A stretch of DNA of 49,492 bases from Magnetospirillum moscoviense (GTDB taxonomy: Bacteria; Pseudomonadota; Alphaproteobacteria; Rhodospirillales; Magnetospirillaceae). The DNA is taken from NCBI RefSeq assembly GCF_001650635.1, contig NZ_LWQU01000128.1, positions 1 to 49,492 of the forward strand, written 5' to 3'. Positions 34,457 to 49,329 of the stretch are shown piece by piece. The position numbers and the translations under genes were made by a program. How positions within the stretch are numbered: position 1 is the first letter of the stretch; every line of letters begins with the position of its first letter. Under the pieces are notes generated by a model. It saw only the letters and a list, made by a program, of their open reading frames with translations. It was not told the origin of the DNA and ran no database searches.

Positions 34457-34533
34457 GCGGGTGTAGCTCAGTTGGTTAGAGTGCCGGCCTGTCACGCCGG
34501 AGGTCGCGGGTTCGAGCCCCGTCACTCGCGCCA
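34457..34533 (+). tRNA. tRNA-Asp (anticodon GTC)
   Basis: The 77-nt cloverleaf has an acceptor stem GCGGGTG/CACTCGC (one G-U), D-arm GTAGCTCAGTTGGTTAGAG, anticodon stem CCGGC/GCCGG with loop CTGTCAC (GTC, reading Asp), T-arm GCGGGTTCGAGCCCCGT, discriminator G, and an encoded CCA. Confidence 0.96.
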
Positions 34534-39837: not shown

Positions 39838-41298
39838 TCAGGCCTGATGCCAGGCGGCAAACTCGGTCAGTACGGCCGGAATGGCCCCGATCAGATCCTC
39901 GGCGATCAGGCCGGGACCGATGCTCGACGCCGCCCGTCCGTGCAGCCACACCGCGGCGGCCGCCGCCTCGAAACAATCCATGCCGGCCGCCATCAGGCCG
40001 CCGGCCAGGCCGGCCAGCACGTCGCCGGCTCCGGCGGTGGCCAGCCAGGGCGGCGCGTTGGCGTTGATCACCGCACGGCCGTCGGGATGGGCGACCACGG
40101 TGTCGGGGCCCTTCAGCAGCACCACCGCCCCGGCCCGTTCGGCCGCCTGGCGGGCGCGATGCAGCCGGCTGCCGGTCAGCTTTCCGAACAAACGCTGGAA
40201 CTCGCCGTCATGGGGGGTCAGCAGCACCTGGGCCGACAGATGGCGGAACAAGGCGTCGGCCGAGCCGGCGAACACCGTCAGCGCGTCGGCATCCAGGATG
40301 CAGGTGCGCCCGGCGGCCAACACTTCGCGGACATGATGACGCATCTGGTCGTCGCGGCCGCCGCCCGGCCCCAGCACCCAGACATTGCGCCTGGTGTCGG
40401 CCAGCAGGGCGGTGAAATGGTCCAGCCCGGCGACGATGGTGCCGGGATCGCCGGCCCGATAGGTGGCGAGCGCAGGTGGTGGTGCTGCGATGGTCGCCAG
40501 CCCCGCCCCGCCGCGGCGCGCCGCCAGGGCGGCCAGCCGGGCCGCGCCGGTCATCTCGGCACCGCCCACCACCACCACATGGCCGCGCGCATATTTGTGG
40601 CCGGCTGCCTGGGGCCAGGGGAAGGAATCGGCCCACAATTCGGGGCCGTTCTCCCACGCCGCCGGCTCGACCTCGGCCAAGACCTGCTCGGGGATGCCGA
40701 TGTCGGCCAGTACCACCTCGCCGCATTTCAGCCGGCCGGGCAGCAGCAGATGGCCGGGCTTCAGGCGGAAGAAGGTCACCGTCGCCACCGCCTGCGGCGC
40801 ACAGCCCAGGATGGCGCCGGAATCCCCATCGACCCCCGACGGCACGTCGGCGGCGATCACCGGCACGCCCCGCTCATCGACCGTTTCCACCATCTTCGCG
40901 GCGATGCCGTCCAGCGGCCGGGCCAGGCCGGCGCCGAACAGACAATCCAGCACCAGATCGGCCCGTTCAATGATATCAATGGCTAAGGGCTCGATTCGAT
41001 GGCGCCAGCGGGCCGCCATCAAGGCGGCGTCACCTTGCAGGTTGACAGCGTCGCCCAGCAGCCCGACCCGCACCGCATAGCCGGCACGGTCCAACAGCCG
41101 GGCGGCGACAAAGCCGTCGCCGCCATTGTTGCCCGGTCCGCACAGCACCGCCACCCGGCAAGCCGGGAACCGGCGCATCGCCTCGCGGGCCAGGGCCCAG
41201 CCGGCGGCTTCCATCAGACGCTCGCCGGGGATACCGCCGGCGATGGCCAGCGAATCGGCGCGATACATCTCGGCGACCGACAGAACTTCGTTTGCCAT
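39838..41298 (-). CDS. nnr: Bifunctional NAD(P)H-hydrate epimerase / ADP-dependent dehydratase
   Basis: The 486-residue protein fuses the YjeF_N epimerase (residues 1-210; CGPGNNGGDGFVAARLL, ADVPSGVDGDSG) with the YjeF_C kinase-fold dehydratase (about 225-486; GHVVVVGGAEMTGAARLAAL, LLTPHDGEFQRLFG, TAGAGDVLAGLAGGLMAAG). It repairs damaged NAD(P)HX hydrates in the cytosol. Both catalytic regions look intact and length is normal. Confidence 0.94.
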   Translation of the reverse strand: MANEVLSVAEMYRADSLAIAGGIPGERLMEAAGWALAREAMRRFPACRVAVLCGPGNNGGDGFVAARLLDRAGYAVRVGLLGDAVNLQGDAALMAARWRHRIEPLAIDIIERADLVLDCLFGAGLARPLDGIAAKMVETVDERGVPVIAADVPSGVDGDSGAILGCAPQAVATVTFFRLKPGHLLLPGRLKCGEVVLADIGIPEQVLAEVEPAAWENGPELWADSFPWPQAAGHKYARGHVVVVGGAEMTGAARLAALAARRGGAGLATIAAPPPALATYRAGDPGTIVAGLDHFTALLADTRRNVWVLGPGGGRDDQMRHHVREVLAAGRTCILDADALTVFAGSADALFRHLSAQVLLTPHDGEFQRLFGKLTGSRLHRARQAAERAGAVVLLKGPDTVVAHPDGRAVINANAPPWLATAGAGDVLAGLAGGLMAAGMDCFEAAAAAVWLHGRAASSIGPGLIAEDLIGAIPAVLTEFAAWHQA

Positions 41299-41437
41299 GG
41301 TGCGCCTCCACTACCGCTTGTCCTTCAAGGGTACGTCCGATCGCCCCACAGGGAAAGCGCCAGCCTTGCAGCGCTGCCTTGCCCTGGCCTGGGGTTTGGG
41401 CTACCACGGATACAGCAATCGCCTGGGAGGCATTCCC

Positions 41438-42703
41438 GTGAGGGTCCTGGTTCTCGGCGCCGGTGTCGTGGGCACCGCCGCCGCCTGGTATTTGGCCCGC
41501 GCCGGCCATCAGGTGACGGTCATCGACCGCCAGCCCGCCGCCGGCATGGAAACCAGCTTCGCCAATGGCGGGCAGATCTCGCCCTGCCATGCCGAGCCGT
41601 GGGCCAGCCCGGCGGTGATCGGCAAGATCGTGCGCTGGCTGGGCAAGGACGACGCGCCCTTGCTGTTCCGCTGGCGGCGCTGGGACCCCGATCTGTGGCT
41701 GTGGGCGGCGCGCTTCCTGACCAATTGCACCGGCCAGGCCCTCGAGATCAACCTGGAACGCACGCTGCGCATCGCCATCTATTCCCGCGCCAAGCTGGCC
41801 GAGCTTCGGGCCGAGCTGGGGCTGGAATACGACCAGCGCCGCCTGGGCATCCTGCATGTCTATCGCAGCGGGCGCGAATTCGACCATGCCTGCCACGCCG
41901 CCGACCTGATGCGCCAATACGGATTGTTCCGCCAGGTCAAGACCTCTAGCGAATGCGTGTCGCTGGAACCCGCGCTGGCGGCCGTCGGCACCCGTCTGGC
42001 CGGCGGCATCCACACCCCCGACGACGAAAGCGGCGACGCCCACAAATTCACCCAATTGCTGGCCGGCCATGCCGCCCGCATCGGCGTGACCTACCGCTAT
42101 GGCGTCACCATCAACACCTTGTTGACACAAGGCGACCGGGTGACCGGCGCCGCTACCGACCAGGGCGAGTTGTTGGCCGACGCCACCATCCTGGCGCTAG
42201 GCAGTTGGAGCCCGCTGATGGCCCGCCCGGCCGGGCTGCGCCTGCCCATCGTGCCGGCCAAGGGCTATTCGATCACCGTTCCGGTCGATGGCCGCAAGGG
42301 GGCGCCGTTCGTGTCGATCACCGACGACGAATACAAGATGGTCTATTCCCGCCTGGGCGACCGCCTGCGGGTGGCCGGCACCGCCGAGATGGCTGGCCAT
42401 GATCCGTCCTTGAACGAGCGGCGCTGGAACCTGATCCGCGAGCGGGCCAAGGGCCTGTTCCCCGATGGCGGCGATTACGCCCGGGCCGAGCCGTGGGCCG
42501 GCCTGCGCCCGGTCACCCCCGACAGCGTGCCGCTGATCGGCCCGACCCGGCTGAAGGGCCTGTGGCTGGATACCGGCCATGGCACCCTGGGCTGGACCAT
42601 GGCCTGCGGCTCGGGCCGGCTGCTGGCCGACATGGTGTCGGGGCGTCAACCCGAAATTGACACCGAGGGGCTGGGGTTGGATCGCTTCAAGCTTTTCATT
42701 TAA
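41438..42703 (+). CDS. dadA: D-amino-acid dehydrogenase-type FAD oxidoreductase
   Basis: The 421-residue DAO-family flavoprotein has the FAD loop VLVLGAGVVGTAAAWYLARA, SFANGGQISPCHAEPWASP (typical of DadA) and the closing PWAGLRPVTPDSVPLIGPT and GHGTLGWTMACGSGRLLADM. DadA oxidises D-amino acids to oxo acids, feeding electrons to the quinone pool. It starts at GTG 41438 with TGGGAGG 8 nt upstream. The 3' end is intact; the recombination scar begins about 50 bp downstream. Confidence 0.92.
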   Translation: MRVLVLGAGVVGTAAAWYLARAGHQVTVIDRQPAAGMETSFANGGQISPCHAEPWASPAVIGKIVRWLGKDDAPLLFRWRRWDPDLWLWAARFLTNCTGQALEINLERTLRIAIYSRAKLAELRAELGLEYDQRRLGILHVYRSGREFDHACHAADLMRQYGLFRQVKTSSECVSLEPALAAVGTRLAGGIHTPDDESGDAHKFTQLLAGHAARIGVTYRYGVTINTLLTQGDRVTGAATDQGELLADATILALGSWSPLMARPAGLRLPIVPAKGYSITVPVDGRKGAPFVSITDDEYKMVYSRLGDRLRVAGTAEMAGHDPSLNERRWNLIRERAKGLFPDGGDYARAEPWAGLRPVTPDSVPLIGPTRLKGLWLDTGHGTLGWTMACGSGRLLADMVSGRQPEIDTEGLGLDRFKLFI

Positions 42704-42753
42704 ATACAACGCCCTAAGAAGCGCGTCTGTAACTGGGGCAAAAGTCCGGGCGA

Positions 42754-43056
42754 TCAGGCGGCGTAGCGCGCGGCGATCAGCGAGGGGAGTCCCGGCACGG
42801 CGTTTCCGACAGCGGCGCCGAGGCGGTCTCCCAGGAAATCCCAGAACGAGATGCCGAGCTTGCGGCAGGTCTTGGCGAGGCCGAGGAAGGCGTCGCGGCA
42901 GTCGCGGCCCTGGTCGCTGCGGGTGTACGGCACCGGCAGCAGCTCGGCCTGGCGGTCGGCCAGCCACTGGGCGCGCGCCGGCCCCTGGCACTTGGGGCAG
43001 TGCCGGTTGCGGCAGGAATTGTACCCGGCCGGATCCGGGCCGCGCTGGTCGCAGAA
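42754..43056 (-). pseudogene. Chimeric transposase remnant (IS91-type N-part joined to another transposase C-terminus)
   Basis: An open frame of about 100 codons without a start runs from just after a TGA (43059-43057) to a TGA at 42756-42754. Its first part, GYNSCRNRHCPKCQGPARAQ then WLADRQAELLPVPY, is the zinc-binding N-terminal domain of IS91/IS801 transposases. At PVPYT it switches in frame to RSDQGRDCRDAFLGLAKTCR, KLGISFWDFLGDRLG and GLPSLIAARYAA, which looks like the C-terminal tail of a different transposase family that I cannot name with confidence. Both the start and the catalytic domain are missing. Confidence 0.75.
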
Positions 43057-43058
43057 TC

Positions 43059-43089
43059 AAAAAGCCAGCAAGTCGTTGGACTTGCAGGC
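43059..43089 (-). terminator. Terminator of the tRNA-fMet fragment
   Basis: On the minus strand GCC-T-GCAAGTC and GACTTGC-T-GGC form the stem around CAAC, followed by TTTTT (43063-43059). It stands 8 nt after the CCA of the tRNA fragment. Confidence 0.75.
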
Positions 43090-43097
43090 TTATTTGT

Positions 43098-43115
43098 TGG
43101 TTGCGGGGGCTGGAT
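43098..43115 (-). other. 3' end of tRNA-fMet (18 nt), att-like remnant
   Basis: On the minus strand ATCCAGCCCCCGCAACCA equals the last 18 nt of alphaproteobacterial initiator tRNA: T-arm end, acceptor 3' strand CCCCCGC and ACCA. Upstream the match stops at once (TTGGC instead of the T-loop). A tRNA-type terminator follows. Such a short 3' piece of a tRNA is the usual trace of tyrosine-recombinase integration. Confidence 0.7.
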
Positions 43116-43265
43116 GCCAATTTTGGACATCAAAGCCTCAGCCAAGAAAGCAGCAGAATCTCCACGGGGCAACACCCCGCTGCCTTCCATAAACATCACG
43201 CGCGGCCCAACGCCTTCCACGAGCCTGAAACCCGAACAAAGCCGGGGGCCACCGAGGCCCGGAGT
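43116..43265. other. Unassigned 150 bp inside the scar
   Basis: No gene or repeat is recognisable on either strand. It lies between the tRNA fragment and the hairpin that follows the proline-repeat reading frame. One open frame on the plus strand has no family resemblance. Confidence 0.4.
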
Positions 43266-43305: not shown

Positions 43306-43436
43306 CTAGGGCTTGACCTCACCACCCGGAGGCGGCGGCGGCATCTCGCCACCCGGAGGCGGCGGAGGCGGCATGTTCGGATCACCACCGGGCGGAGGCG
43401 GCGGCGGCATCTCGCCACCCGGAGGCGGAGGCGGCC
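43306..43436 (-). pseudogene. C-terminal fragment of a protein with MPPPPPGG repeats
   Basis: On the minus strand the frame reads RPPPPPGGEM, PPPPPPGGDPNM, PPPPPPGGEM, PPPPPGGEVKP and stops at TAG (43308-43306), so four tandem units of 27-36 bp. Upstream of the first unit the frame runs only a few codons into the antisense of the ABC transporter before a stop, so the 5' part of the gene is missing. It looks like the tail of a separate gene fused here. Confidence 0.55.
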
Positions 43437-45347
43437 GGCCTGCGCAAGCTGCCGCTGCCGCTGGTGGTGTTCTGGAACTTCAATCATTTCGTCGTGGTCG
43501 AGGGATATGGCGACGGCACGGTCTTCCTGAACGACCCCGCCACCGGACCGCGCGCCGTGGCCGACCTTGAATTCGACGAATGCTTCACCGGCGTCGCCCT
43601 GGCGTTCGAAACAGGCCCCGACTTCGTGACCGGCGGCCATCCCCCGGGCGCCTGGACCACCATCAAGGCCAAGCTGGACGGCGTGCGCACCCCGCTGCTG
43701 TTCCTGCTGTTCACCAGCATCGCCCTGGCCTTTCCGGTGCTGGTCCTGCCGTCCTTCCAACGGGTCTTCGTCGATTATTACCTGATCGGGCACCTGAACG
43801 ACTGGCTGGCCCCGCTGCTGGCGGCCATGGCCGCCGCCGCCCTGTTGCGCATGGGGCTGACCTGGCTGCAGCAAGAGCATCTGCTGAAGCTGCAGACCCG
43901 GCTGTCGGTGACCTCGTCGTCGCGGTTCTTCTGGCACGTTCTGCGCCTTCCCATCGGCTTCTTCGCCCAACGCTATGGCGGCGAGATCGCCACCCGCGTC
44001 CAGTTGAACGAGCGCGTCGCCACCTTGATCGGCGGCGACCTGGCCTCGGCCGGGTTGAACGCGGTCACCATGGTGGCCTTCGCGCTTTTGATGCTGCAAT
44101 ACGACGTTTTGCTGACCCTGGTCGGCCTGGCCTTCGCCGGCGCCAATCTCGCCGCCCTGCGGCTGGTGTCGCGCCGCCTGTCGGACGCCAATCAGAAATT
44201 GCTGCAAGATCGCGGCAAGCTGTCGGGCATCGCCACCCAGAATATCGGCATCATCGACAGCTTCAAGGCCTCGGGGATGGAAGGCCTGTTCTTTGGCCGC
44301 ATCGCCGCCTATCACGCCAAGGTGGTCAGCGCCGAACAGAATCTGGCGCGCCAGCGCCTGTTCCTGCAGGCCGCCCCCTTGCTGCTGGGGGGCATCGCCT
44401 CGGCGGCGATCCTGACCGTCGGCGGCTTCCGGGTCATGGAGGGAACGCTGAGCATCGGCATGCTGGTGGCGTTCCAGATGCTGATGGCCCAGTTCCAGGC
44501 CCCGGTCACCGGCCTGGTCGGGCTGGGCGGCCAACTGCAAGAGGCCGAAGGCTATGTCAACCGGCTTGACGACGTGCTGCGTCATCCGCGCGCCCCCGAG
44601 TTCGCGGCACCGCCGGCTCCGGCGCGCAAGCTGACCGGCCGGCTGGAGGTCCGCGATCTGGTGTTCGGTTTTTCCCCGCTCGACCCGCCGCTGATCGAGG
44701 GTTTCTCGCTTACTCTGGCGCCGGGCGCCCGCGTGGCGTTGGTGGGCGGCTCGGGCTCGGGCAAATCAACCATCGGCAAGCTGCTGGCCGGCTTCTACCG
44801 CCCGTGGTCGGGCGAGATTGTGTTCGATGAAGTCCCGATGGACCGACTCGGGCGCGAAACCCTGCGGACCTCGCTGGGGATCGTCGATCAGGACATCGCC
44901 CTGTTCGAAGGCACCATCCGCGAGAATTTGTCCCTGTGGGACGACACCTTGCCCGATGAACGCATGGTCCGCGCCGCCAAGGACGCGGCCATCCACGACG
45001 TCATCGCCGGCCGGGCCCAGGGCTATGATTCCCCGGTGTCCGAGGGTGGGCGGAACTTCTCGGGCGGGCAGCGTCAGCGCATCGAGATCGCCCGCGCCTT
45101 GGCCGCCGAGCCCTCGATCCTGATCCTGGACGAAGCGACCAGCGCGCTGGACGCGGCGACCGAGGTGGCGGTGGTCGAGAATTTGCGCCGCCGCGGCTGC
45201 ACCTGCATCATCATCGCCCACCGCCTGTCGACCATCCGCGATTGCGACGAGATCGTCGTGCTCGAGCGCGGCCGCATCATCCAGCGCGGCACCCACGACG
45301 CGATGATGGCGGCCGACGGCCCCTATCGCCGCCTGATCGAGCATTGA
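43437..45347 (+). pseudogene. NHLP-type peptidase/ABC exporter, 5'-truncated
   Basis: The frame enters at about 43437 (GLRKLPLPLVVFWNFNHFVV); the first usable start is GTG 43464, giving 627 residues. The C39 peptidase retains its His (NHFVVVEGY) and Asp (FLNDPATGP) but lacks about 80 N-terminal residues with the catalytic Cys. The membrane domain (six TM, residues about 65-330) and the ATPase are intact: GGSGSGKST, signature FSGGQRQRIEIARAL, Walker B ILILDEATSALD. Intact homologues cleave a GG-type leader and export the peptide. The leader-cleaving function is lost; whether a shortened transporter is made is unknown. Followed 7 bp later by its partner. Confidence 0.8.
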
Positions 45348-45354
45348 GGGCGCC

Positions 45355-48285
45355 ATGACCAGCCAAGCCCCGGTTCCCACCGCCCTTCCCCCCAGCCTGC
45401 TTGCCGGCGGCAAGACGCAGGATCTGGCGGCCAATCAGGTTCTGGCCTTGACCGGTGAAAGCGGGCTGTGGCTGGTCGAGACCGGCGAATTGGATGTCTT
45501 TGCCGTCGATCGTGACGCCGACGGCCGGCCGGGGGTGCGACGCCACCTTGCCACCGTGACCACGGCCGGGCTTCTGGCCGGGCTCGACTGGCCGGCCGAC
45601 ACCGCTATCAACATCGATATCGTCGCCATCAGCCGGGGCGCCCGGTTGTCCCACATCACCGCCGAGACCCTGCCCTCGGTCTCGGACCCGGCCGCCCTGT
45701 CGAGCCTGGGCCAAGCCCTGGATCGCTGGATCATCGGCCTGACCGCCGGGCTGACCCGCTTCTTCGCCCTGCGGTCCGCCGCCATCCTGCCGCTGGCCCC
45801 CGGTGCTTCCGTCACCGCCGCCGAAGGCACGCTGATCGGCTGCCCGCGGGGACTGATCTGGGCGCTGGTCTCGGCCGGTTCGGCCCGTTATCTCGGGGTC
45901 GAATCGCTGGCGGCGGCCGACCAGCCTCTGGTCCCGCTGACCCATGACAGCTGGTTGACCGCCGACCAAGGCGGCGCGACGCTGGTGGGCTATCCCACCG
46001 CCTCGCTGATGCAGACGCCGCACTGGCTGGCGCGCGCGCGCATCTTCCACCGGGTGTGGCTGCAAACTCTGGCCCGTAGCGTCGCCCACGAGGCCCTGGC
46101 CGAGGAACGGCGGCTAGACCGGCGCAACGGCGAGACCCAGGACGCCGTCGACGGCACCCTGACCCGCCTGGTCGGCCTGGTCGGCGAGGTGGTCAAACCC
46201 AGCCCGGTTCACGACCCCGACAATGCCTTGGCCATCGCCTGCGCCGCCGCCTGCAAGCCGCTGGGGATCACCATCGAGGCGTCTCCTCTGATGGTGCGAC
46301 GGCGAACCGGCGACCGCCAACTGACGGTCGAGGACGTGGCGCGCATCGCCCGGGTGCGAGTGCGCCAGGTCGCCCTTCGCGGCCAGTGGTGGCTGCAAGA
46401 TCTTGGGCCGCTGGTGGCCTTCGTCGATGATGACGGCCAGCCCGTCGCCCTGATCCCCGGCGGCGACGGCAAGTACCGGCGGCAATCCATCGACGGCACC
46501 GCGCCGCGCGTCATCGACGCCACCATGGCCGAGGATCTGGCCCCCATGGCGTGGAGCTTCTATGCCCCGCTTCCCGAAGGCCGGGTCACCGTGGCCGAAT
46601 TGCTGCGGATGGGGTTGCGCAACCAGACAGCCGATCTGTTGACCGCCGGGGCGGCGGGGATTGCCGGCGGATTGCTGGGGCTGGCCTTGCCGCTCCTCAC
46701 CGCCTGGGTCTTTCGCGACATCATTCCCGGTCATCTGGATGGTCAGCTGCTCCAGGTCGGCTTGGCCCTGATCATGGCGGCGACGGCGACCACCATCTTC
46801 AAGATCGTCGGCGACGTCGCCCTGCTGCGCATCGAGGGGCGCATCGCCGGGCGTCTGCAGGCCGGCATCATCGACCGATTGCTGCGCCTGCCCTCCAGCT
46901 TCTTCAACACCTATTCGACCGGCGACCTGGCGCTGCGCACCTTGACGGTCGAGACGGTCCGCAAGGCGCTGACCGGGCTGGTACTGTCGTCGGTCCTGGC
47001 GGCGGTGTTCTCGCTGTTTTCCTTCGCGCTGCTGTTCTGGTACCAGCCGGCCGCGGCGGCGCTGGCCGGGCTTTTGTTCCTGCTGGTGCTGGGGGTGTCG
47101 GCCTGGGCCGGCGCGCGGCAATTGAAGGCCATCTTCGAGGGCGAGGCCATCTCGGGCAACATCAACAGCCTGGTGCTGCAGTTGGTCAACGGCGTCCCCA
47201 AGCTGCGCATGGCCGGCGCCGAGGACCGCGCCTTCGTCCGCTGGGGCAAGGTCTTCGCGGAATTGCGGGCCCGCATGGTGCGCATGCGCCGGATCGCCAA
47301 CGCCTATACCATCTTCCTGGCCGGGTTCGACATCGTCGCGTTGGGCCTGATCTTCCTGGTCATGGCCGGCGCGGCCGGAACCGACATGGATACCGGCTCG
47401 TTCCTGGCCTTCGTCACCGCCTTCGCCATGTTCATGGGGGCGACCACCCAGATGGGCCGCGCGGTGATCCAATGCTACAACGTCGCCCCGATGATCCAGC
47501 GCGCCCGCCCGTTGCTCGACACCGCGCCCGAGGTCGATTCCAGCAAGACCGACCCTGGCCAACTGAGCGGCGGCATCGAGGTGACCGGAGCGGTTTTTCG
47601 CTATGATGCCGGCGGCCCCAAGGTGCTGAACGGATTGTCCGTGGCGGCCCGGCCCGGCCAGTTCATCGCCTTGGTCGGCCCGTCGGGTTGCGGCAAATCG
47701 ACCTTGATGAAGCTGATCCTGGGGTTCGAGCGACTGGAAGCCGGCGGAATCTTCTTCGACGGACACGATTTGCGCACGCTGGATATCCAGGCGGTTCGCC
47801 GCCAGATCGGCGTGGTGCTGCAATCGGGCCGGCTGATGCCGGGCACCATCTACGAGAACATCAAGGGCGCGTCGGACGCCAGCGTCGATGATGCCTGGGA
47901 GGCCGCTGCCATGGCCGGGCTCGACGGCGACATCAAGGCGATGCCGATGGGCATGCACACCGTGCTGACCGAAGGGTCGGCGGCGCTGTCGGGTGGCCAG
48001 GTCCAGCGGCTGCTGATCGCCCGCGCCGTGGTGGCGCGGCCGCGCATCCTGCTGTTCGACGAAGCGACCAGCGCCTTGGACAACCTGACCCAGGCGGTGG
48101 TCACCGAAAGCCTGTCGCGGCTGTCGGTCACCCGCATCGCCATCGCCCATCGTCTCAGCACGGTGAAGGATGCCGACCGCATCTTCGTGATGAAGGACGG
48201 CAGGGTCGAGGAACAAGGCACCTACGACGAATTGATGGCCCGCAACGGGCTTTTCTCTGAACTGGCCCGCCGGCAACTGACCTGA
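45355..48285 (+). CDS. NHLP bacteriocin system ABC transporter, permease/ATP-binding subunit
   Basis: The 976-residue protein has a long N-terminal region (1-400) with a cyclic-nucleotide-domain-like start (VLALTGESGLWLVETGELDV), an ABC membrane domain (about 420-715) and an ATPase domain with GPSGCGKSTLMKLILGFE, signature LSGGQVQRLLIARAV and Walker B ILLFDEATSALD. No C39 peptidase is present. This architecture is the second ABC protein of NHLP (nitrile-hydratase-leader-peptide) export clusters, which work with the peptidase-ABC protein encoded just upstream. No HlyD-type adaptor or precursor gene is in the window. Confidence 0.9.
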   Translation: MTSQAPVPTALPPSLLAGGKTQDLAANQVLALTGESGLWLVETGELDVFAVDRDADGRPGVRRHLATVTTAGLLAGLDWPADTAINIDIVAISRGARLSHITAETLPSVSDPAALSSLGQALDRWIIGLTAGLTRFFALRSAAILPLAPGASVTAAEGTLIGCPRGLIWALVSAGSARYLGVESLAAADQPLVPLTHDSWLTADQGGATLVGYPTASLMQTPHWLARARIFHRVWLQTLARSVAHEALAEERRLDRRNGETQDAVDGTLTRLVGLVGEVVKPSPVHDPDNALAIACAAACKPLGITIEASPLMVRRRTGDRQLTVEDVARIARVRVRQVALRGQWWLQDLGPLVAFVDDDGQPVALIPGGDGKYRRQSIDGTAPRVIDATMAEDLAPMAWSFYAPLPEGRVTVAELLRMGLRNQTADLLTAGAAGIAGGLLGLALPLLTAWVFRDIIPGHLDGQLLQVGLALIMAATATTIFKIVGDVALLRIEGRIAGRLQAGIIDRLLRLPSSFFNTYSTGDLALRTLTVETVRKALTGLVLSSVLAAVFSLFSFALLFWYQPAAAALAGLLFLLVLGVSAWAGARQLKAIFEGEAISGNINSLVLQLVNGVPKLRMAGAEDRAFVRWGKVFAELRARMVRMRRIANAYTIFLAGFDIVALGLIFLVMAGAAGTDMDTGSFLAFVTAFAMFMGATTQMGRAVIQCYNVAPMIQRARPLLDTAPEVDSSKTDPGQLSGGIEVTGAVFRYDAGGPKVLNGLSVAARPGQFIALVGPSGCGKSTLMKLILGFERLEAGGIFFDGHDLRTLDIQAVRRQIGVVLQSGRLMPGTIYENIKGASDASVDDAWEAAAMAGLDGDIKAMPMGMHTVLTEGSAALSGGQVQRLLIARAVVARPRILLFDEATSALDNLTQAVVTESLSRLSVTRIAIAHRLSTVKDADRIFVMKDGRVEEQGTYDELMARNGLFSELARRQLT

Positions 48286-48299
48286 TTGGGAGAACGGCA

Positions 48300-48842
48300 A
48301 TGCGCAAGGTATTGGTGATATTGGGGCAATTGTCGGACAGCGACGTCGAGTGGCTGGCCCAGGCGGGAACGCGCGAAAAAGTCGCCGCCGGCCGGGTGCT
48401 GATCGAGGAGGGCCGCCCGATCTCGTCGCTCTATATCCTGCTCGACGGCCACATGGCGGTGTCGCTGAAGGGCATCGGGACGGTGGCGACCTTGAGTTCC
48501 GGCGAGATCATGGGCGAGATGTCGATGATCGATTCCCGGCCGCCCTCGGCCTCGATCACCGCGCAGGACGATTGCCTGGTCCTGGCCCTGTCGCGCGAGG
48601 CCCTGCAGCAAAAGCTCGATACCGACGTGGCCTTCGCCGCCCGCTTCTACCGGGCCATCGCCACCTTCCTGTCCGACCGGTTGCGCGGCACGGTGCAACG
48701 GCTGGGCTATGGCGACAGCGGCGCATCGCTGGACGAGGATGTCGAGCTGGAAGGCGAGCTTGATCTCAACGTGCTGGACAACGTCCACCTGGCCGGCGCC
48801 CGGTTCGAACGCATGCTGAAGACCTTGGGCGGATCGAGGTGA
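48300..48842 (+). CDS. Cyclic-nucleotide-binding-domain protein
   Basis: The 180-residue protein has a single cNMP-binding beta-barrel (about 15-115: GRVLIEEGRPISSLYILLDG, LSSGEIMGEMSMIDSRPPSA). The phosphate-binding cassette has the GE-(x)n-RPPSA form of CRP/PKA domains. There is no DNA-binding helix-turn-helix; the C-terminal helical part is acidic. It starts 14 bp after the ABC gene and is commonly found in NHLP export operons, so it may regulate the exporter through a nucleotide. Confidence 0.88.
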   Translation: MRKVLVILGQLSDSDVEWLAQAGTREKVAAGRVLIEEGRPISSLYILLDGHMAVSLKGIGTVATLSSGEIMGEMSMIDSRPPSASITAQDDCLVLALSREALQQKLDTDVAFAARFYRAIATFLSDRLRGTVQRLGYGDSGASLDEDVELEGELDLNVLDNVHLAGARFERMLKTLGGSR

Positions 48843-48922: not shown

Positions 48923-48950
48923 AAAGCCCTCGCCTTTGGCGGGGGCTTTT
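48923..48950 (+). terminator. Hairpin just before the IS1182-type gene
   Basis: AAAGCCC-T-CGCC (48923-48934) pairs with GGCG-G-GGGCTTT (48938-48949), followed by T. Similar hairpins form the terminal inverted repeat of IS1182-like elements, so it may be the left end of the IS rather than an operon terminator. Confidence 0.6.
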
Positions 48951-48963
48951 GATTCAATGGGGC

Positions 48964-49329
48964 ATGCTCAAAAAACCGACGCCCCAACAGACGGAACTTG
49001 AGATGGTGACGATCGCGTCGCTGGTTCCGTCGGACCATCTGCTGCGTAAGATCGACGCGGCGATCGACTTCTCGTTCATCCACGACCGGGTGGCGCATCT
49101 GTATTGCCCCGATAACGGGCGTCCGGCGCTGGACCCGGTGGTGTTGTTCAAGATGCTGTTCGGGATGCGCTCCGAGCGGCAGTTGATGCGGGAGATCCAG
49201 GTCAACGTGGCGTATCGCTGGTTCCTTGGCCTGCGGCTGACCGACAAGGTGGCGGACGCCTCGACGCTGAGCCAGAACCGGCGGCGGCGGTTTGCCGACA
49301 GCACGATTTACCAGGACATTCTGAATTGA
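48964..49329 (+). pseudogene. Truncated IS1182-family transposase
   Basis: The 121-residue fragment begins MLKKPTPQQTELEMVTIASL and matches the N-terminal quarter of IS1182-type transposases (normally about 450 residues) through DASTLSQNRRRRFADSTIYQ. It then ends DILN-stop where the family continues with the catalytic core. It also lacks about five residues (GYLF-type) between VVLFKMLF and GMRSERQL. The element is inactive. Confidence 0.85.

Follow-up and report, generated by a model that had tools for sequence, protein, structure and literature searches.

Genomic islands in tRNA genes are regarded as the territory of tyrosine integrases, and enzymes of the large serine recombinase (LSR) type have seldom been reported at such sites. 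In the portions of the Islander paper drawn on here, only tyrosine integrases are stated to be known to target tRNA genes (tDNAs), and this 2014 island database confined the term integrase to the tyrosine class for its tRNA searches (PMC4383910). The TIGER/Islander announcement did not cross integrase class with target (PMC12424338). An actinobacterial survey, in the excerpt used, describes serine-recombinase integration into tRNA genes as rare and gives as its examples the tRNA-Leu AICEs of Mycobacterium and phage phiRSM1 (PMC3218068). Among the titles and abstract openings searched, a scope that leaves most subscription literature outside and is not proof of absence, no serine integrase at tRNA-fMet was found.

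The locus described here resembles each of these systems in part. The tDNA islands of Islander, as far as the excerpted description goes, carry an intact tRNA at one end and a displaced 3' fragment at the other, with the element between them, as does the element of genome G010 described below; their integrase is of the tyrosine type, whereas here an LSR stands beside the site (PMC4383910). Phage phiRSM1 of Ralstonia likewise combines a serine recombinase with a core made up of a tRNA 3' end (13 nt of tRNA-Ser) in reverse orientation, but according to the part of the report used it is a filamentous phage with a small resolvase-like enzyme and another tRNA (PMC3816273). The Mycobacterium AICEs share a serine recombinase with a tRNA target but belong to Actinobacteria and use tRNA-Leu, a likeness drawn from the excerpted description and not from sequence (PMC3218068).

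The window, the whole stretch of 49,492 nucleotides analysed, is contig C128 of Magnetospirillum moscoviense (genome G000, a draft of 207 contigs). Judged from its sequence, an 18-mer at 43098-43115 of the window is probably the chromosomal half (B') of a decayed attR (P-B') of a serine-integrase element that targeted tRNA-fMet, with the interior of the element to the right.

The displaced tRNA-fMet end

Read on the minus strand, positions 43115-43098 of the window are ATCCAGCCCCCGCAACCA, the last 18 nt of tRNA-fMet displaced from any tRNA body. This agrees with the first-pass annotation, which had described such an end without a tRNA body, followed by a tRNA-type terminator. No tRNA was found at the site by ARAGORN or by Rfam at the gathering threshold; the only tRNA of the window is a tRNA-Asp at 34457. 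A complete genomic counterpart was found: ARAGORN placed an intact tRNA-Met (CAT) at C132:31-107, with the 3' end ATCCTGCCCCCGCAACCA, and on the strength of its sequence this gene is here taken as the initiator tRNA-fMet. Another tRNA-fMet is cut by the end of contig C21. The window 18-mer is identical to the C132 end at 17 of 18 positions, the one difference in the core being T to A.

The homology extends through the terminator, with 86% identity over 63 nt between window 43053-43115 and C132 (E = 2.4e-14). The terminator itself, a tRNA-fMet-type hairpin with a T run (43058-43096, minus strand), has a folding energy of -20 kcal/mol (z = -6.2 relative to dinucleotide-shuffled sequences).

Where no tRNA is involved, the 18-mer is not a common sequence. 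A scan of the window that allowed up to 3 mismatches gave this 1 match, against 0.13 expected by chance. Without mismatch, ATCCNGCCCCCGCAACCA occurs at 4 sites in the genome, namely, the intact C132 tRNA and three displaced ends (the window, C8:162, and C138:18932); with up to 2 mismatches, 9 sites were found in the whole of G000, and the backwards control gave 0. Two further degraded tRNA-fMet 3' ends lie at C138:37166 (L036) and C130:183195 (L040).

The element-side arm

The 11 nt beyond the window 18-mer on the side away from the terminator (43116-43126, minus strand) are CCAAAATTGGC, which is not tRNA sequence and would represent the P half of the site. The same 11 nt adjoin the displaced 18-mers on C8 and C138, and the three neighbourhoods are otherwise different. 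Such constancy is as expected of an element's own attachment arm. When up to 3 mismatches were allowed, the arm joined to the 18-mer was found in 3 of the 317 genomes of the order: G000 itself has three sites, and G178 and G286 have a single site each. The copies in G178 and G286 have 2 mismatches in 29 each, and the window copy has 1 in 29. The outer arm of the window has decayed, reading GATGT versus GTTCG in C8 and C138. On C138, the arm is not followed by a terminator, nor is an LSR remnant close by.

A 19-letter pattern of the arm gave 0 matches in viral contigs. In the genome contig collection it gave 2, in a record titled Pseudomonadota and in a record of an Opitutaceae bin, and neither was judged related. 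L151:520-560 and 1050-1075 have the look of a dispersed repeat that resembles the arm with the tRNA end.

It is very improbable that the 18-mer matches by chance or belongs to an unrelated dispersed repeat. The observation in favour of this is the one exact 21-mer match, GCGGGGGCTGGATGCCAATTTGACAT, in L151 (a record titled Pseudomonadota), with a similar second stretch 500 bp away, but the homology of the terminator over 63 nt and the rarity of the 18-mer in the genome argue against it. The fragment in the window is genuine.

Both ends of one element in G010

In G010, a genome of the same genus, an LSR reading frame extends into a complete tRNA-fMet at 250150-250226. A displaced 14-mer, TGCCCCCGCAACCA, lies at 230984, 19.2 kb from the whole tRNA, and is followed by a tRNA-type terminator. 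Because the outer arms of the two sites, TGTCGGTATCGG and CCGATACCGACA, are reverse complements of each other, there is good evidence that the whole tRNA-fMet and the displaced 14-mer belong to one 19-kb LSR element. By this pattern, the chromosome side and the terminator of the window scar would lie to the left (below 43098) and the element side to the right (above 43115).

About 90 bp past the displaced core in G010 are 79 to 80% identical to the DNA that follows an intact tRNA-Met in G008 and G011; this similarity is made up of the terminator and some 45 bp more. It stayed at about 90 bp when longer flanks were compared, which leaves an empty site in these two genomes unproven. No convincing gene synteny of the G010 flank with G008 and G011 was found in the 4.7 and 12.9 kb compared.

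Large serine recombinases beside tRNA-fMet ends

On contig C11 of G286 (9475 bp), the arm is at 14-42 and an LSR is at the opposite end, and the stretch separating them encodes a MobA/MobL relaxase and a DUF3987 protein. The LSR is a 576-codon open frame with Resolvase (PF00239), Recombinase (PF07508), and zinc-ribbon (PF13408) domains, and LSRs with these three domains also stand beside the site in G099 and G010. No tyrosine integrase was seen when the open reading frames of this contig were inspected by eye. On C8 of the M. moscoviense genome, the arm adjoins a 38-residue LSR C terminus (C8:80-181) that is 65% identical to the LSR of G099.

Relatives of the G286 LSR at E = 1e-60 or better are present in 72 of the 317 genomes of the order. 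A tRNA-fMet-type end (TGGTTGCGGG/CCCGCAACCA) follows the LSR match within 130 bp in 27 of the 30 LSR loci listed with flanks, in convergent orientation in 22 of them and on the same strand only in 5. Of the three remaining loci, L160 and L177 are at contig ends, where 1 and 20 bp of sequence remain; in L169 a different tRNA-Met end follows the LSR. As a control, one 130-bp stretch upstream of each LSR was searched, and 0 of 30 had a tRNA-fMet-type end. Among 14 PF07508 loci in G000, G007, and G010, such an end was found only at L192 of G010, a member of the family. At five LSR loci, the LSR is at the arm side instead.

Eleven of the 25 LSR C termini read end in ...FRL, which is an antisense reading of tRNA-fMet; VAGAGFEPATFRL is the C terminus in L171, L173, L183, and L186, and the other seven have close variants. 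The C terminus of L192 likewise reads antisense tRNA-fMet.

No full LSR of the family was found in the M. moscoviense assembly at E = 1e-60. At lower stringency, the assembly yielded only distant serine recombinases (best on C206, with 33% identity and E = 1e-10) and the C8 remnant. A scan for LSR remnants at E = 0.05 matched only C8:83-178 and gave nothing in the window or in stretches of C130, C132, C138, C155, C21, and C34. Near the G178 fragment, no LSR was found in the 38 kb read; the LSR match of G178 is on another contig. A dyad score was tried on 13 att-like junctions. Three junctions of the arm with an LSR end scored 13 to 16 of 24 and the other 10 scored 9 to 12, among them C8, which is also read as an arm/LSR-end junction and had the lowest score, 9; the score was suggestive at best and was not used.

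Tyrosine integrases at the same tRNA

The tRNA-fMet gene is an integration hotspot in the family, with tandem fragments in G007 and other genomes. In G007:C1, two tandem stretches and one single stretch (2053239-2085603 and 3848386-3861006) run from tRNA-fMet to 45-nt fragments of the anticodon-loop type. The window scar could in principle be the attR of an ordinary tyrosine-integrase island whose crossover fell in the T-loop of tRNA-fMet. Islands of the tyrosine type are plentiful at this tRNA here, as 45-nt fragments that start from the anticodon loop; G007 has a tyrosine integrase near such a fragment; and the tDNA islands known so far are overwhelmingly of this type, according to the portions of the Islander paper used (PMC4383910). 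However, the tyrosine-type fragments begin at the anticodon loop (CTCATAACC...) and the window fragment begins at ATCC, and the arm found in the window accompanies LSR parts on C8 and in G286, with no tyrosine integrase. An ordinary tyrosine-integrase island is therefore an unlikely source of the scar, and the integrase behind it was probably a serine rather than a tyrosine enzyme.

ARAGORN and a search for the 18-mer, applied to the 12 PF00589 loci of the M. moscoviense genome with about 1.5 kb of flanks, showed no tRNA-fMet end next to any of them; one adjoins tRNA-Pro. The first-pass annotation had taken the displaced tRNA end as the classic footprint of an integrase-driven island. The hotspot and the recurrent arm support a footprint of site-specific integration, but the evidence points to an LSR instead of the classic tyrosine class.

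Neighbourhood of the scar

To the right of the scar are the 3' end of a proline-repeat gene (43317-43435, minus strand; homologous to G007:690668-690783) and, on the plus strand, a cluster with two ABC transporters. The first is a peptidase-C39 ABC transporter (43464-45347; PF03412, PF00664, and PF00005) whose C39 domain lacks its N-terminal part, PF03412 covering only positions 80-130 of 133. The second ABC transporter (45355-48285; PF00664 and PF00005) and a protein with a cyclic-nucleotide-binding domain (48300-48842; PF00027) complete the cluster, and a transposase fragment (48949-49329, plus strand; PF05598) lies near the contig end. The transporter cluster shows 79% identity across 5.4 kb with one in G007. 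The join at window 43436-43464 cuts the peptidase domain. G007 has about 2 kb (C1:688716-690668) separating its proline-repeat gene from the C39 transporter, and these are absent at this join. The 18-mer has five exact matches in G007, all of them away from its transporter cluster.

An integrase gene, which an integrase-driven island would be expected to carry, was not found: the contig of the window has no PF00589 or PF07508 match. For this reason, the window counts as a trace of the LSR/tRNA-fMet family rather than as an island or a working member. No attL partner for the putative attR was found.

To the left, the terminator is abutted by an IS91-type transposase fragment with the zinc-binding domain (42928-43047, minus strand; PF14319, E = 3.4e-12), part of which recurs at the start of contig C155. 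Next to it is a 197-bp end piece of an insertion sequence (42729-42925; no Pfam match), which is 99% identical in C34 and C103 and which we take to be IS66-like from its GTAA end and 8-bp duplication. What the first-pass annotation had called a transposase chimera is really these two pieces. The 8-bp target duplication, GCGCGTCT, is at 42721-42728, and beyond it lies an FAD-dependent oxidoreductase gene (41126-42703, plus strand; PF01266), presumably dadA-like and called dadA below.

A convergent comEC follows the oxidoreductase gene in 8 of 12 relatives, the call resting on PF03772 for the G011 copy and on judgement by eye for the other seven. ARAGORN found no tRNA within about 1.5 kb beyond the 3' end of the gene in the loci of all 12 relatives. 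With no tRNA in these loci and comEC in 8 of them, dadA was rejected as a native neighbour of tRNA-fMet. In M. moscoviense, comEC lies on contig C197, where it stops at the opposite end of a like insertion sequence, beside the same 8 bp (GCGCGTCT); an insertion sequence therefore entered between dadA and comEC.

The order in the window is thus the first 197 bp of the insertion sequence, the IS91 piece, and the tRNA terminator, so that the tRNA-distal flank of the scar is IS debris. The meeting of broken genes, in which the first-pass annotation had seen an island border, therefore adds no support for one: the left ones are IS fragments, and the 8-bp duplication links the dadA flank to comEC on C197. 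What lies to the left of the scar is therefore not an island's own border but the product of a rearrangement, by recombination between IS copies, or of a misjoin in the assembly. A misjoin is possible, given that the sequences of the window, C34, and C103 part from one another beyond one shared IS base and that the start of C155 falls within the IS91 piece.

Two accounts of this neighbourhood were weighed, and both are compatible with a serine-integrase attR. It is possible, if somewhat doubtful, that the dadA side and the right half with the tRNA fragment and transporters were misassembled through the IS repeats. The presence of the 197-bp piece in three contigs with one point of divergence, together with the start of C155, speaks for this; a rearrangement between IS copies could look identical, however, and the 18-mer, arm, and terminator are to the right of the repeats and hence unaffected. 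Rather less likely, a genuine tRNA-fMet scar was relocated by an IS-mediated or homologous rearrangement, and no island border was ever here. The 8-bp duplication linking dadA, the insertion sequence, and comEC, the lack of a tRNA within 1.5 kb of the dadA 3' end in 12 relatives, and the IS91 sequence abutting the terminator favour relocation, but it accounts for the place and not for the scar, as the arm and core still require a site-specific event. Relocation may be part of the later history of the scar.

Proposed attachment at tRNA-fMet and a possible element family

The sequences establish the fragment with its terminator, the arm common to several loci, the association of LSRs with tRNA-fMet, and the two ends in G010. 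From these we infer that an LSR of this family made the window scar; the enzymatic steps and the direction of events given here are conditional on that reading. The LSR would recombine the attP of the element with the T-loop/acceptor end of tRNA-fMet as attB. At attL, the complete tRNA would be kept, the element supplying its own copy of the 3' end, and the LSR gene would run into it. At attR, the displaced original 3' end and its terminator would be preceded by the arm of the element (...GTTCGCCAAAATTGGC). Afterwards, drift would have altered the window's arm (GTCCAAAATTGGC) and a single base of its core, and IS elements would have cut the chromosomal side; the integrase and the partner attL are not on the contig.

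The LSR gene extends into the element's own attachment site, so that integration would swap the C-terminal tail of the enzyme between ...VAGAGCQFWRT at an arm junction and ...VAGAGFEPATFRL, read antisense through tRNA-fMet. Such a change of tail might serve as a marker of the integrated state, or even in its regulation.

On present sequence comparisons, Alphaproteobacteria quite possibly harbour widespread, apparently unnamed serine-integrase elements that use tRNA-fMet as attB and restore it on integration, of which the window would hold a fossil. The proposed family spans mobilizable elements, plasmid-borne copies, and possibly phages. If this is true, a serine-integrase family explains some of the displaced tRNA-fMet ends in the order, an attB is available wherever the tRNA-fMet end is conserved, and nature provides a test of how far a serine integrase tolerates a C terminus that changes on integration. 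The significance for the window is modest, as it holds an old, degraded scar.

Of 35 plasmid records, nine LSR loci were fetched (the first eight matches and H14), and a GGTTGCGGG-type end followed the LSR in all nine. In three, this end is a tRNA-fMet, whole or as a long fragment; five have arm-like junctions (GGTTGCGGG...GCAACC), and L240 is ambiguous. The plasmid copies L238, L242, L244, and L245 have arm-like junctions with no tRNA in the 260 bp read, as if they bore a ready attP. At positions 1-190 of C8 (L037), the LSR C terminus continues directly into the element arm, which looks like an attP and hence like a circular or tandem element.

The integrase of Rhizobium phage RR1-A (L247) is also an LSR (34% identical), and its C terminus, VVAGERFEQ, is read from a similar TGGTAGCGGGAG end. 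Unlike the elements above, it belongs to a phage and is known here from the LSR end sequence, which suggests a related attachment site of the tRNA-Met type.

In G148 (C1:4098904-4147678), three LSR genes about 23 kb apart are behind one tRNA-fMet, in an apparent tandem array that mixes both fragment types. The same genome has another whole tRNA-Met at 4080282.
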